From assembly GCA_030530095.1 (NCBI GenBank), contig JAUMVO010000011.1:1-61646 (forward strand): DNA of 61,646 nucleotides, given 5' to 3'. Under the pieces are notes generated by a model. It did no database searches and was not told where the DNA came from. It saw only the letters and a list, made by a program, of their open reading frames with translations. This DNA is from Clostridiaceae bacterium. GTDB lineage: Bacteria; Bacillota; Clostridia; Oscillospirales; Acutalibacteraceae. Shown here in pieces: positions 53,039-57,264 of the stretch; position 1 is the stretch's first letter; the number at the start of each line of letters is the position of its first letter. A program made the position numbers and the translations under genes.

Positions 53039-55963
53039 TTAATCCATCAGATTGTTAATAAACTTATCAATGTAGAACAGGTCAAACGCGTCAACTGCAC
53101 CGTCACGGTCGAAATTCGCAATTTTCAGTTCGTCAGGTGTGAGGTCCTTTACGCCCCTGAGATAAGTATAGATAATGACGTAGTCTTCAAATTCAACCAT
53201 ACCGTCCTCATCCATATCACCGAGAAGCCTGAGCGAAATGTCCTGACTTATTGCAAGCGAGCCCTTGACAACCTGAATTTCCTCGATTACGTGATACTTC
53301 TTGACTGCCCTGAGCGTATATGTTCCTTCGGCAACGTTATTGAAAACGTAGCTTGTGCTGTTGCCGCTTACAACCGTTTCATAAGCTGCTTCGCTGTAGC
53401 CTGCCGGTATAAGCTGAACGATTATCTCGTCGGTGTTGCTGTAATGGCTGAGCACGTCGCCGTAAACGTCGTCATTCTGCGCTTCGCGTACATATATGTT
53501 TGCAAAGCCTGCGGCAGTTGTGCCGTTGACGCCTTCGGCATAGCCGTGAAGCACGTAGTCCATAAGTCCCGCGCGAGCATTCGTAACTGTCAGCGTTGCG
53601 GTGTCGCCGTTTGTTAAGCTCTGAGTAAAGGTGCATTCGGGGAAGAGCGCTTCCATATCGTCAACGGAGAAGTAATCAATATTGCCGTCGCCGTCGTCAC
53701 GCTCGAATTCCCAGTTGCCGTTGGTCATATTGTCGGCCCTGAAGCTGAAGCTTAAGGTCTGACCCTCGATAACCGTAAGGTCCTCAAGCGGCGCGGTTAT
53801 CGTCGGCTTGATAACAGTCAGTGTGAACGGCAGACAGCCGATAGCATCGTCAACGTTGACGTCTACCGAACCGATGGTGTTTGTAAGCTTATAGCACAGG
53901 GAGCATCTGTAAATCTTTTGCGGGGTAACGCCGTGGAATACTATTGTTGCTCTGTTGAGCTTGGGCTGTGTGATTTTATCGTACGTAAGTCCCTCGTCGG
54001 CGCAGAACTCGTCAACCGTTCTGATTGCAAGCGAGCCGCCCGACCTGTCGGCGATATACCATTCAACCGTATTTGCATTTGAAGCTTCAAGATATTTTAC
54101 TTTCAAGGTGAAGGCCGCATCACCGCCGCTTAAGTATTCTCCGCCCTCAAAGCTTGAAACGGTCGGTTTTTTGCCGAAGTCGAAATATATGCCGCTGCTG
54201 TGGGGAACGGTTTTGACTGTTCCGTCGGTACCCGTAACACGGCAACGGAACCTTTCGCTGCTGATTGCATTTAATTTGACTCTTAAAGTAGGAGTGCTAT
54301 AGCCTTCAATTTCAGTTCCGTTACCTGATAGTAAAGAAGCATACTGTGACAGATTCACCCACGCACCGCCCATATTATACTGCCAGTTGTAAGCGGTTGC
54401 GTGGTCGGCGATTACCGTAGCCTGAGCCCATTCGCCCGGCTCCACAGTTACCGAGGTCGGATTGCTGATTATATTTGCCGCCTGAGGCGCTTCCGTAACG
54501 TCAATTACATACGTTCTCTCGGCAACTGTGTCCTCGCCGCCTATGGTGAAGGTCGTTCTGATATTTACCGTCAGTCCGTCGGGATAATCGGTATAATTGA
54601 CGGTATAGCTGTCCGAATTTACGGTAAAGGTATTGCCGCCGACGGGAGTAATCTTAATCTCGGTCGAAACGGGCATACCGTACATATATGAAGGAATATT
54701 GTAAAGCGCTTCGAACGTATCGCTCTGCGAAGTATCCCTTTCAAGCGTTGCGGGGAAGGATTCGGCAACGGGATTCGTTCTGAAATTCAGGAAGTCTTCA
54801 CTAACGACATAAAACGTCTTGACGTTGTGAAGGTCGCCGAGAGTCAGTCCGTCAAGTCCGTTGATGTTGGAATTGTTCTGCTTCTTGCCCTTGACAACCG
54901 TATTTGCGCTTGCCTTGATAATATCGGAAGCCGCCTTTTGCCTGAAATCGCTGTAGCCGTCGTTATAGGTAAACGTCATGCCGACGAAGCCCATTCTGCC
55001 GACAAACGTGCCGCCGTAGATTTTAGGGAAGAGCATACAGCCGGTTGAATTTACGGTAGGTCCGGAATATCCGCTTGAGCTGCCCTTATCAAAATGATGC
55101 ACCGAGTAACCGACCGACTGGAACAGACCGCCGTTGATTACGAGGCTGCCTGCATAGCAGTTCGGAATGAAGTCAAGCTTCGTGCTCGAGAAAATACCGC
55201 TGGGATTTGTTACCGAGCAGGCGCTCGCCAAAGCGGAAAGCTCACGGTAGCATTCGTCAACGCCCGTACCGTCGCCCTGAGCGATAAACGTACCGCCGTT
55301 AACTGTCGCCTGAACCTCGTCCACAATAACCGTTCCTCTGTATGCGTTTTCACGGTTGAGCGTTCCTCTGCCGAACTTTGTGCACGAAGCGGTAAGGGTA
55401 TATGTGCCGCCGTCAAAGATTACTACGTTGTCGCACTTGCTTGAGGACTGCAGATAGCCGAACTTCTTGTACCATTTGTTGTGAGCAACGTGCAACGCGG
55501 CGAGCTGGCTGTCCTTGCCTCGTTTGGAAACCATCGAAATACCGCCGCCGCCGACAGAGTCGGTGAAGCGAAGCACGGAGCCGGTGTCTGCGTCTATCTG
55601 ATGCATATCAATTCTAAGGAAATCCGACAGACAGTAGTCAAGGTCCGTTTCCGAAACCGTGTCCGAACACGACAGGGTATGGCCGTTGAAGTCGAAGGTA
55701 ACGATACCGCCGAAAATCTCGGTCATTTTAACGTAGGTCGCTGTTCTTGCGGTATCGATTGCGCTGAAGTACAGATTGTTCATTAGCTTAACGGTGTATT
55801 CCGCGCCGTCATAATTTGCGATACGGAAAGCCGCGTCAAGCTCCTCCCAGGTGTGAACCTCATAAACTACCTCATCCTCGGCATAGGAGCCGACCGCCGC
55901 AAGCGGCAGAGCCGACACAACGAGAACGAGTGAAAGTATAATTGATAATACTCTTTTTTTCAT
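53039..55963 (-). CDS. Large secreted protein with C-terminal dockerin-like module
   Basis: The 974-residue extracellular protein starts with a signal peptide (about 1-28, KKRVLSIILSLVLVVSALPLAAVGSYA). The N-terminal half (about 30-420) has repeated glycine-rich strand patterns resembling a right-handed beta-helix. Two or three Ig-like or PKD-like blocks follow (about 480-860), with TVEPGEWAQATVIADHATAYNWQYN and LTVIEGQTLSFSFRADN. The end (about 915-974) is dockerin-like: DMDEDGMVEFEDYVIIYTYLRG and ANFDRDGAVDAFDLFYIDKFIN, each a calcium loop plus helix. The start at 55963 follows GGAGG. No catalytic domain is recognised; it may be a carbohydrate-associated scaffold or structural protein. Confidence 0.78.
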   Translation of the reverse strand: MKKRVLSIILSLVLVVSALPLAAVGSYAEDEVVYEVHTWEELDAAFRIANYDGAEYTVKLMNNLYFSAIDTARTATYVKMTEIFGGIVTFDFNGHTLSCSDTVSETDLDYCLSDFLRIDMHQIDADTGSVLRFTDSVGGGGISMVSKRGKDSQLAALHVAHNKWYKKFGYLQSSSKCDNVVIFDGGTYTLTASCTKFGRGTLNRENAYRGTVIVDEVQATVNGGTFIAQGDGTGVDECYRELSALASACSVTNPSGIFSSTKLDFIPNCYAGSLVINGGLFQSVGYSVHHFDKGSSSGYSGPTVNSTGCMLFPKIYGGTFVGRMGFVGMTFTYNDGYSDFRQKAASDIIKASANTVVKGKKQNNSNINGLDGLTLGDLHNVKTFYVVSEDFLNFRTNPVAESFPATLERDTSQSDTFEALYNIPSYMYGMPVSTEIKITPVGGNTFTVNSDSYTVNYTDYPDGLTVNIRTTFTIGGEDTVAERTYVIDVTEAPQAANIISNPTSVTVEPGEWAQATVIADHATAYNWQYNMGGAWVNLSQYASLLSGNGTEIEGYSTPTLRVKLNAISSERFRCRVTGTDGTVKTVPHSSGIYFDFGKKPTVSSFEGGEYLSGGDAAFTLKVKYLEASNANTVEWYIADRSGGSLAIRTVDEFCADEGLTYDKITQPKLNRATIVFHGVTPQKIYRCSLCYKLTNTIGSVDVNVDDAIGCLPFTLTVIKPTITAPLEDLTVIEGQTLSFSFRADNMTNGNWEFERDDGDGNIDYFSVDDMEALFPECTFTQSLTNGDTATLTVTNARAGLMDYVLHGYAEGVNGTTAAGFANIYVREAQNDDVYGDVLSHYSNTDEIIVQLIPAGYSEAAYETVVSGNSTSYVFNNVAEGTYTLRAVKKYHVIEEIQVVKGSLAISQDISLRLLGDMDEDGMVEFEDYVIIYTYLRGVKDLTPDELKIANFDRDGAVDAFDLFYIDKFINNLMD

Positions 55964-56066
55964 AATAAAACCTCCACGGAAAAAAGGGTATATTATTCTT
56001 CTATTATATAATAACAGAAACAATTATAAAATTCAACAAAAAACGTTAAGGTGTCCGTTCCGCCGT

Positions 56067-56526
56067 ACGAAAACGAGCGATATGAAGCTTGCGAAAAAAG
56101 CAACATAAAACCGCAAAAAAGTTGGTAGCGACAGTTTTTCGTTGCGAGGGCGTTTATTATGAGCGAAGCGAATAAAAAGGTTCTGCCGCTTGCGGCAAGC
56201 TTCTTTCAACCGAGCAGAAAAACCGAGCGAGACTTTTTGCGGAGAGGAGGAGCAGCGGAATGAGTGAGCTTTTCGTGGTTGCACGAAAACGAGCGATATG
56301 AAGCTTGCGAAAAAAGCAACATAAAACCGCAAAAAAGTTGGTAGCGACAGTTTTTCGTTGCGAGGGCGTTTATTATGAGCGAAGCGAATAAAAAGGTTCT
56401 GCCGCTTGCGGCAAGCTTCTTTCAACCGAGCAGAAAAACCGAGCGAGACTTTTTGCGGAGAGGAGGAGCAGCGGAATGAGTGAACTTTTCGTGTTTGCAC
56501 GAAAATGAGCGATATGAAGCTTGCGA
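56067..56526. repeat. 216-bp tandem repeat, two copies plus a partial third
   Basis: Two nearly identical 216-bp units (56067-56282, 56283-56498) and the first 28 bases of a third (56499-56526) run head to tail. Differences are few (for example gtgagcttttcgtggttgc against gtgaacttttcgtgtttgc). 216 is a multiple of three, so an ORF on the minus strand stays open across the copies, but it has no ribosome binding site and reads as repeat translation. The unit holds a TGCCGC/GCGGCA hairpin. No gene is accepted here. Confidence 0.88.
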
Positions 56527-56676
56527 CGACGAGGTGAGCCATCGGAGAATCGGCAAGGTTGCACCTTGCCGACATTTGCTTCGCAAATTGATTTGATTAT
56601 ATGTCCCTTTTGCTCCGCCTTCGGCGTACCGCAAAAGATGGACGATACGTTCGATTCTCCTCTGCTAAATCAAAAA

Positions 56677-56717
56677 GAAAAAAACAGAGCATCCCATACG
56701 GGATACTCTGTTTTTTT
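56677..56717 (-). terminator. Terminator hairpin in array unit 1
   Basis: An ACAGAG-c-ATCCC/GGGAT-a-CTCTGT stem (one mismatch) with flanking A and T runs works in both directions. On the minus strand it follows the second tRNA-like 3' fragment. Confidence 0.75.
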
Positions 56718-56867
56718 GGTGAGCCATCGGAGAATCGGCAAGGCTGCACCTTGCCGACATTTGCTTCGCAAATTAATTCGATTTTATGTCCCTTTTGCTC
56801 CGCCTTCGGCGTACCGCAAAAGACGGACGATACGTTCGATTCTCCTCGGAAATAAAAAAACTCCATT

Positions 56868-56895
56868 AAAAAAGCACCCACAAGGGGTGCTTTTC
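56868..56895 (-). terminator. Terminator of tRNA-Lys
   Basis: AAAAGCACCC/GGGTGCTTTT stem followed on the minus strand by six T. It starts two bases past the encoded CCA end. Confidence 0.85.
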
Positions 56896-56896
56896 G

Positions 56897-56972
56897 TGGT
56901 GAGCCATCGGAGAATCGAACTCCGGACACCATGATTAAAAGTCATGTGCTCTACCGGCTGAGCTAATGGCTC
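56897..56972 (-). tRNA. tRNA-Lys (anticodon TTT)
   Basis: The complement folds as a 76-base cloverleaf. It has acceptor stem GAGCCAT/ATGGCTC, D arm GCTC/GAGC, anticodon stem CATGA/TCATG with loop CTTTTAA (anticodon TTT), a five-base variable loop and T arm CGGAG-TTCGATT-CTCCG. The 3' CCA is encoded. It lies 41 bp downstream of secG on the same strand and is probably co-transcribed. Confidence 0.95.
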
Positions 56973-57012
56973 AAACAGAAAGCGGATGGGTCATCCGCCT
57001 GTTTGTTAAGTA

Positions 57013-57264
57013 TTACTTTAAGAAGAGGAGAAGTATGGTTGCGGCAAGTACAAGCACGAAGAAGAAAATACCGAAATACTTGGTGAACTTCTCGAGCTTT
57101 GCCTCAACTGTTCTGCCCTTGTTCTTGCCGAAGAAGGTGTCCGCAGCGCCCGAAATAGCGCCCGAAAGACCTGCTTCACGGCTCTGCTGCATAAGAACAA
57201 CAACGATTATAATCAGCGATGAAACGATTACGAGAGAACCGATAATTATCTGAATAGCTGACAT
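57013..57264 (-). CDS. secG: Preprotein translocase subunit SecG
   Basis: The 83-residue SecG supports SecYEG-mediated protein export. It has the characteristic two helices (about 4-26 and 62-82). The cytosolic loop between them contains MQQSREAGLSGAISGAADTFFGKNKGRTVEAKLEKFTKYF, of which the LSGAISG..DTFFGKNKG segment is diagnostic. It is the first gene of a secG/tRNA-Lys unit. Confidence 0.93.
   Translation of the reverse strand: MSAIQIIIGSLVIVSSLIIIVVVLMQQSREAGLSGAISGAADTFFGKNKGRTVEAKLEKFTKYFGIFFFVLVLAATILLLFLK

Follow-up and report, generated by a model that had tools for sequence, protein, structure and literature searches.

What kind of DNA could place, directly behind a tRNA gene, two further copies of that gene's 3′-end, each accompanied by the T-arm word in inverted form? 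The question is raised by a tRNA-Lys locus in a stretch of 61,646 nucleotides (the window), which is contig C18 of the genome of a Clostridiaceae bacterium (the focal genome, G000; assembly of 1.82 Mb in 48 contigs). The locus comprises the following features, in which invT denotes the inverted T-arm word and T′ the direct copy of the tRNA end:

56897–56972, minus strand: tRNA-Lys(ttt), the host gene of the array, with a gene-encoded CCA (ARAGORN; Rfam RF00005, 70.7 bits)
56865–56896, minus strand: terminator 1, a hairpin and T-run between tRNA-Lys and unit 1 (from the sequence)
56834–56845, minus strand: invT of unit 1, an exact 12-nt reverse complement of the tRNA-Lys T-arm (inverted-repeat pair)
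56738–56833, minus strand: core of unit 1 with three hairpins, namely the GTCC..GGGAC hairpin, the TTTGCGAAGCAAA hairpin and a third hairpin
56718–56737, minus strand: T′ of unit 1, a 20-nt copy of the T-arm/acceptor end of tRNA-Lys (exact repeat)
56678–56717, minus strand: terminator 2, unlike terminator 1 (inverted-repeat pair)
56649–56660, minus strand: invT of unit 2, the exact 12-bp word (inverted-repeat pair)
56553–56648, minus strand: core of unit 2 (repeat alignment)
56533–56552, minus strand: T′ of unit 2, the last A of its CCA missing where another repeat abuts (exact repeat)

Read 5′ to 3′ on the minus strand of positions 56533–56972, the order is tRNA, terminator 1, invT, core, T′, terminator 2, invT, core and T′; a unit consists of a terminator, invT, a hairpin core of ~95 nt and T′, ~185 bp in total. 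The two Lys units form a direct repeat of 162 nt with 88% identity and a spacing of 185 bp (56533–56694 and 56718–56879), and the 20-bp tRNA-Lys end is exact in both, its source copy in the tRNA itself being located at 56898–56917. A preliminary description of this DNA had reported two tandem units with an exact tRNA-Lys end and an inverted T-arm word in each, and both observations were confirmed, the former by the ARAGORN call and a repeat search, the latter by an exact 12-bp match in both units. It had also given each unit a terminator of its own. The hairpin terminators are present, but each precedes its unit and none is found directly behind the distal one; the strand was also corrected. 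No coding gene was seen in the units, and in an Rfam search of positions 55900–57100 the tRNA alone reached its gathering score, with no curated RNA family for the units. Folding, a check proposed in the same description, gave z = −6.6 for the RNA of tRNA-Lys and the first unit, and z = −5.4 for the unit as single-stranded DNA. In the minimum-energy fold of tRNA-Lys and unit 1, the T-arm pairs with invT and the 5′ acceptor strand pairs with T′.

The distal Lys unit runs into a multi-hairpin repeat of ~245 bp, which is found in two tandem copies with 99% identity (56067–56530). Its left end (TCGTCGTCGCAAGCT.. or close to it) also directly abuts tRNA or T′ CC(A) ends elsewhere, at Thr(tgt) and Ala(ggc) of the focal genome and at loci L052, L053, L054, L056 and L070.

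The architecture is not confined to tRNA-Lys. A DNA search with one unit returned six pieces outside C18 (two each on C11 and C4, one each on C32 and C10), and ARAGORN placed a tRNA upstream of all six, close by in five cases and 1.2 kb away for one of the C4 pieces. Rfam predicts 32 tRNA genes in the focal genome. Behind the 30 examined, several of which are near contig ends, a unit with T′ was found 11 times, at Lys, Glu(ttc), Tyr, Val(gac), Trp, Ala(cgc), Pro(cgg), Leu(taa), Ala(ggc), Ser(cga) and Ser(gct); the T′ of Tyr exceeds the automatic mismatch limit and was counted after reading by eye. Leu(caa), read separately from this set, is a twelfth tRNA with a unit, and invT without the rest is found behind Leu(gag) and one Met. 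A covariance model built from 42 units of the window's core type (R1) has 14 matches in this genome, all in arrays behind 11 tRNA genes, one of them displaced: two each at Lys, Glu and Tyr, and one each at Leu(taa), Leu(caa), Ser(cga), Ser(gct), Val, Pro, Ala(ggc) and Arg(acg). The second Tyr unit is located 1.1 kb downstream of tRNA-Tyr. The Arg match (C15:10086) follows a displaced 3′ part of tRNA-Arg, ~13 kb from the intact gene.

Two of these places carry additional DNA. At G000:C15:10000–23100 (L152), tRNA-Arg(acg) is seemingly split by an insertion of ~13 kb, with the displaced 3′ part and repeat units at its far end, and an integrase fragment and a gene that is TraG-like by eye lie near the intact tRNA-Arg gene. 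The interval of ~1 kb between the first and second Tyr units (L012, 7089–8352, on C4) contains a 197-aa ORF on the same strand, with a zinc-ribbon-like start by eye; it is the only cassette-like case seen in the focal genome.

The exact core pattern has 37 matches on 29 stretches of public genome contigs, from metagenome-assembled genomes (MAGs) labelled as uncultured Clostridia, Clostridiales, Clostridiaceae, Oscillospiraceae or Ruminococcus. No stretch among viral contigs matches it, and a viral reservoir was rejected on that ground. The prediction that the core sits beside tRNA genes holds: 33 of the 37 matches, three of which follow tmRNA genes, are found at most 1 kb behind a tRNA or tmRNA gene on the same strand, as compared with 6965 of 116000 random positions in the same loci. 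As for the remaining four, the match in L055 is located 73 nt from the contig start, that in L073 continues the Glu array of L048, that in L065 follows a tRNA-like 3′-end uncalled by ARAGORN, and that in L052, with Ser-like ends, has no tRNA in the 1.1 kb of sequence upstream of it. The largest array seen, at Arg(acg) in L053, has four full units. In L057/L086, L068, L079 and L040, the final array copies are cut within the first core hairpin, at similar places.

Within the family, R1 has matches in 8 of 120 genomes, the focal genome included. Those of G098, G034, G014 and G073 are found behind tRNA or tmRNA genes, and that of G057 shows the same architecture around another core and follows a tRNA-like 3′-end uncalled by ARAGORN. 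The matches in G115 (no tRNA near) and G051 (overlapping a tRNA-Leu gene) both have E values of about 1e-4 and were taken as chance. A search of 391 genomes of the class with the pattern GGGATTCGAACC..CGAATCCC, which is exact for one T-arm type, returned none; it misses the focal genome too and therefore says little about spread. The occupancy of tRNA genes differs between the focal genome and its congener G098: units are absent from most tRNAs of the former and often from the same tRNA in the latter. The genomes compared are mostly fragmented metagenome assemblies, with the exception of G098 (three contigs) and the control genome G007 (one contig).

Both flanks follow the tRNA beside which they are found. 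invT is the reverse complement of positions ~52–65 of the local tRNA and T′ a copy from position ~56 to the gene end, and such matches occur at about twenty tRNA species. Positions were counted over 48 tRNA–unit pairs from the focal genome, G098 and MAG loci, a set that includes two His wrongly paired with a neighbouring Gln unit and one Met remnant, and in which invT had been sought with a minimum of 6 matches in 8. invT agrees with the tRNA complement in 39/48 pairs at position 52, 45–48/48 at positions 57–62 and 33–35/48 at positions 63–65, and falls to 14/48, the level of chance, by position 67. For T′, scored in 41 pairs, agreement with the tRNA is 39–41/41 at positions 60–73, 32–34/41 at positions 56–59, 14/41 at position 54 and 6/41 at position 53.

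A test with fixed thresholds, in which the invT and/or T′ of the local tRNA were sought behind each tRNA of three genomes, found them at 12 of 28 tRNAs in the focal genome and at 12 of 40 in G098, where one tRNA-Met has a T′-only match. The G098 count is likely low because the test anchors on CCA and can misplace tRNAs without a gene-encoded CCA (Val of G098 has invT yet is absent from the lists). In the control G007, which belongs to the same family and has no R1 matches, none of 34 tRNAs has invT or T′. When T-arms were swapped between tRNAs, matches in the focal genome, G098 and G007, respectively, numbered 2/518, 5/1130 and 2/802 for invT, 3/518, 15/1130 and 25/802 for T′, and one, one and zero for the two together.

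The preliminary description had further expected the tRNA words to co-vary with the neighbouring tRNA, which they do, even when the T-arm of a given tRNA is not the same in two congeners. This is the case for Glu(ttc) and Ala(cgc) in the focal genome and G098, and invT and T′ follow in each genome, with the exception of one invT mismatch in Glu of the former and one in Ala of the latter. CCA is not encoded in the G098 genes for Lys, Glu and Ala(cgc) and is missing from the corresponding T′ copies as well, which argues for copying at the DNA level. Imperfect T′ copies are found as well: the first T′ of Val, Pro and Leu(taa) in G098 is without the acceptor part, and in L071 Pro the T-stem part of T′ mismatches the tRNA.

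The inverted copy tracks the tRNA rather than the direct copy. For 28 units found by core anchors alone, with the ends unused, positions 57–66 were compared; five tRNA–core pairs without T′ were dropped, four of them a tRNA-Met beside a Glu unit. T′ and the tRNA disagree at 25 positions in total, and there invT follows the tRNA 23 times, T′ once and neither once; in the 48-pair set the same comparison gave 32, one and one. As invT follows the tRNA and reaches position 52, which is outside T′, it is templated by the T-arm of the tRNA or selected against it. Helices between invT and T′ nonetheless pair in 96.6% of cells. An attC-like hairpin of invT and T′ was considered and is weakened, since invT follows the tRNA gene and not T′.

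The core behaves differently from its ends. Cores at Leu(taa) of the focal genome, Leu(caa) in L061 and Pro(tgg) in L071 (both JAEEUJ) and Gln in L062 (ONBD) are pairwise 94% identical, with differing invT and T′, and further close cores within one genome are found at Arg and Ser (91%) and at Leu and Val (89%). Near-identical cores with different ends suggest that the core moves and that the ends are re-made. Mean core similarity is 0.685 for the same tRNA in different genomes (60 pairs) and 0.598 for different tRNAs in one genome (94 pairs); units of the same tRNA are thus somewhat more alike, which points to part of the descent having run tRNA by tRNA and argues against pure hopping. Stems are kept in 97.3% of pair cells, with 102 cells changed on both sides, and none of 500 shuffles was as high on either of these measures, though the structure was predicted from the same alignment as was tested; on another measure, 'further pair types', 31 of the 500 did reach the observed level.

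At least two further core types share the architecture, at Trp and Ala(cgc) of the focal genome and at Arg, Gln, Val, Pro, Leu and Ser(gga) of G098, and the core type is not fixed to place. A search with the type 3 core returned 19 pieces in G098 and two in the focal genome. Three of the G098 places have no complete tRNA beside them. Two lie next to a displaced 3′ part of a tRNA gene, tRNA-Trp in one case and tRNA-Leu(cag) in the other; at the third, ~7 kb behind tRNA-Gln(ctg), there is a truncated remnant whose invT is of the Gln type. The displaced tRNA-Trp and tRNA-Leu(cag) parts with their type 3 units (L197 and L203, respectively) were probably displaced by larger integrated elements. A second dispersed element (ACAATCCCTCCGTCAGCC..GGGAGGC) is nested near type 3 units in L132, L197 and L199 of G098, with repeated pieces made up of the third hairpin and T′.

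Near-identical terminators flank the unit at 11 of 28 loci; at the other 17, the two are unrelated. In L063 and L080, successive terminators share their flanking bases and have wholly different hairpin stems, which looks like replacement of the whole hairpin.

Tentatively, and with slightly less than even confidence, we favour the reading that the units are small, apparently non-coding and non-autonomous mobile palindromic repeats of tRNA and tmRNA 3′-ends, in which the core moves and the flanks are re-copied from the new host gene. The architecture, a core between two outward-facing copies of the host T-arm in tandem arrays, can be read directly from the loci, and the movement is suggested by comparing them. 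The core would move between tRNA genes, and both flanks would be re-copied at the DNA level each time. The near-universal T-loop word GTTCRA could serve as the docking microhomology for both core ends, since it is at the T-loop that each of them joins the tRNA sequence, with the flanks extending outward from there. DNA synthesis outward over the T-arm, as in replication template switching, would then leave an inverted copy on one side and a direct copy on the other. Such switching is reported (PMC8794818) to create reverse-complement repeats and perfect stems in a single event. The direct copy may sometimes take the terminator along, as the near-identical terminators on both sides at 11 of the 28 loci would suggest. 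Tandem copies could arise by recombination between direct T′ repeats, with distal copies decaying, and the first tRNA end stays intact, so we propose that insertion is harmless to the tRNA.

Some observations sit poorly with this mobile-repeat reading. The 17 loci with unrelated terminators are not what simple duplication predicts, and the order of a terminator followed by invT within a few tens of nucleotides looks more regular than random template switching. The presence and absence of units comes mostly from metagenome-assembled genomes, the core match in L052 is without a tRNA, and the T′ copies of G098 and L071 are imperfect. An enzyme acting at times may take part, as reverse transcriptase and Y1 genes occur in some carriers. 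The preliminary description had offered two ideas. Its small element carrying a tRNA end and a terminator was the better one, apart from self-propagation in the sense of self-coded mobility, as no gene was seen in the units. Its other idea, the footprint of ordinary insertions and losses, is insufficient: it leaves both the inverted T-arm and the near-identical cores with changed ends unexplained.

The main enzyme-based alternative is that the units are site-specific cassettes: a tyrosine recombinase supplied in trans would insert circles, each consisting of the T 3′-end, terminator, invT and core, into the T-loop. This would be similar to accreting decayed cis-mobilizable elements, and invT and T′ may fold like an attC site. 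The right junction is usually near T-loop position 56 (T′ matches in 32/41 pairs at 56 and 14/41 at 54), the tRNA end is restored with T′ as direct repeats, and the unit folds well as single-stranded DNA, all as such cassettes would have it. At Leu(caa) in two genomes, moreover, the terminator after T′ is similar by eye and the one before the unit differs, and one possible gene-bearing cassette is found behind tRNA-Tyr. We nevertheless consider cassettes unlikely. The focal genome has only one full-length tyrosine recombinase (336 aa) and a 124-aa ORF (PF00589), with no link seen between these genes and the units; insertion across tRNA types would, by inference, replace the acceptor strand and break the tRNA; and the tracking of the tRNA gene by invT means that a hairpin of invT and T′ is not what is kept. 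No exact 15-nt T′ copies were found beyond 1 kb in loci of at least 4 kb, a search that diverged copies such as the second Tyr escape. Other enzymes were sought by profile searches of six carriers (G000, 96% complete; G014, 89% complete; G098, G034, G057 and G073) and ten non-carriers. The Y1 transposase profile (PF01797) was not found in G000, G014 or G034, was marginal in G098 (23.0 bits), and was found in G073, G057 and four of the ten non-carriers; Y1/IS200-like transposition was rejected, three of the six carriers searched having yielded no match to the transposase. The reverse transcriptase profile PF00078 (RVT_1) was not found in G098, G014, G034 or G057, and has one match each in G000 and G073 and is found in one of ten non-carriers. 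Retrotransposition from mature tRNA was rejected because four of the six carriers searched yielded no RVT_1 match and because T′ has no CCA at three tRNAs of G098 whose genes have none. Neither enzyme is common to all six carriers searched.

A role as RNA, the main functional alternative, is to us about as doubtful as cassettes. In a read-through transcript, invT would pair with the tRNA T-arm and T′ would replace the 3′ acceptor strand, making an extended tRNA or an attenuator of maturation or read-through. The minimum-energy fold of the tRNA and unit 1 contains exactly this pairing, invT tracks the T-arm and T′ the acceptor strand across many tRNAs, and the stems still pair through two-sided changes. 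A functional RNA is harder to reconcile with the fact that most tRNAs of the same genome, and often the same tRNA in the congener, are without units; cores of different types are found in one and the same place, the acceptor part goes unmatched in the first T′ of G098 Val, Pro and Leu(taa), and no Rfam family other than tRNA reached its gathering score in 55900–57100. Independent local duplication at each tRNA, by slippage or unequal crossing over and without a mobile core, would account for tandem direct repeats and for the near-identical terminators at 11 of 28 loci, given a first unit. It cannot yield an inverted T-arm together with a shared core, and the same core is found at 11 tRNA genes of the focal genome and in other genomes; we regard it as very improbable overall and refuted as the sole explanation, while for the growth of arrays it is likely.

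Among known repeats, REP/BIME, Correia, BOX and MITEs are short, non-coding, structured, dispersed and non-autonomous. To our knowledge, their ends are constant, and they do not take up copies of the host gene on both sides. The units resemble them in all five respects, but are found almost only at tRNA and tmRNA 3′-ends and have inverted ends that vary with the host tRNA. Tycheposons and other islands that integrate at tRNA genes span kilobases, carry genes and bring recombinases of their own; the units likewise use tRNA 3′-ends, but are small and have no gene that we could see.

Decayed tRNA-integrated elements (CIMEs and ICE/IME remnants) are described (PMC5704250) as accreting in tandem between direct repeats of the target end, with the target gene restored. 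Like CIMEs, the units lie between direct repeats of the target's 3′-end, here T′. Unlike them, they are ~180 bp long with no gene or linked integrase seen, contain an inverted T-arm, and are found at over a third of the focal genome's tRNAs with largely one shared core and with both ends changing with the tRNA; cores 94% identical at Leu(taa), Leu(caa), Pro and Gln also contrast with the one-target specificity of CIMEs. The attC sites of integrons, according to PMC3053210, are imperfect palindromes of 57–141 bp that fold as single-stranded DNA, occur in tandem arrays and have GTTRRRY and RYYYAAC core sites. By that account, the unit is similarly an imperfect palindrome in this size range, with a single-stranded DNA fold and tandem arrays, but has no GTTRRRY core site: the T-arm reads GTTCRAN and the unit ends are TTCRAN and NTYGAAC. 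Ends that vary with the tRNA are a further difference from integron cassettes, as would be the near lack of cargo and of a shown integron integrase, and an integron was rejected on the misfit of the core-site words. Template-switch hairpins share with the units reverse-complement local copies and multi-base compensatory stem changes, but PMC8794818 describes mutation events within RNA genes, and the units are a dispersed family anchored at tRNA genes. No description of such units was found among open-access PMC texts, as represented by titles and abstract openings. CIMEs and attC sites each fail a defining feature tested here, and the pattern appears new in kind; a more cautious classification would be as an unusual form of remnant anchored at tRNA genes.

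The 3′-ends of tRNA genes are classic landing sites of bacterial mobile DNA, and their known users bring an integrase and serve one or a few tRNAs. Here, a piece of ~180 bp with no visible gene is found behind over a third of a genome's tRNA genes, with flanks rewritten to match each. Rather improbable, though worth stating, is that this is a mobile repeat that re-programs its target recognition with each move, the 12–17-nt invT, rewritten from the gene just landed behind, being its current 'guide', with no enzyme of its own and with any tRNA or tmRNA accessible through the universal T-loop. If confirmed, the mobile repeat favoured here would show how a repeat can incorporate the sequence of its own target, and would tie mobility anchored at tRNA genes to template switching during replication or to an unknown enzyme. 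The arrays, decayed copies and whole-hairpin swaps would then be a natural record of how hairpins and palindromes originate and spread.
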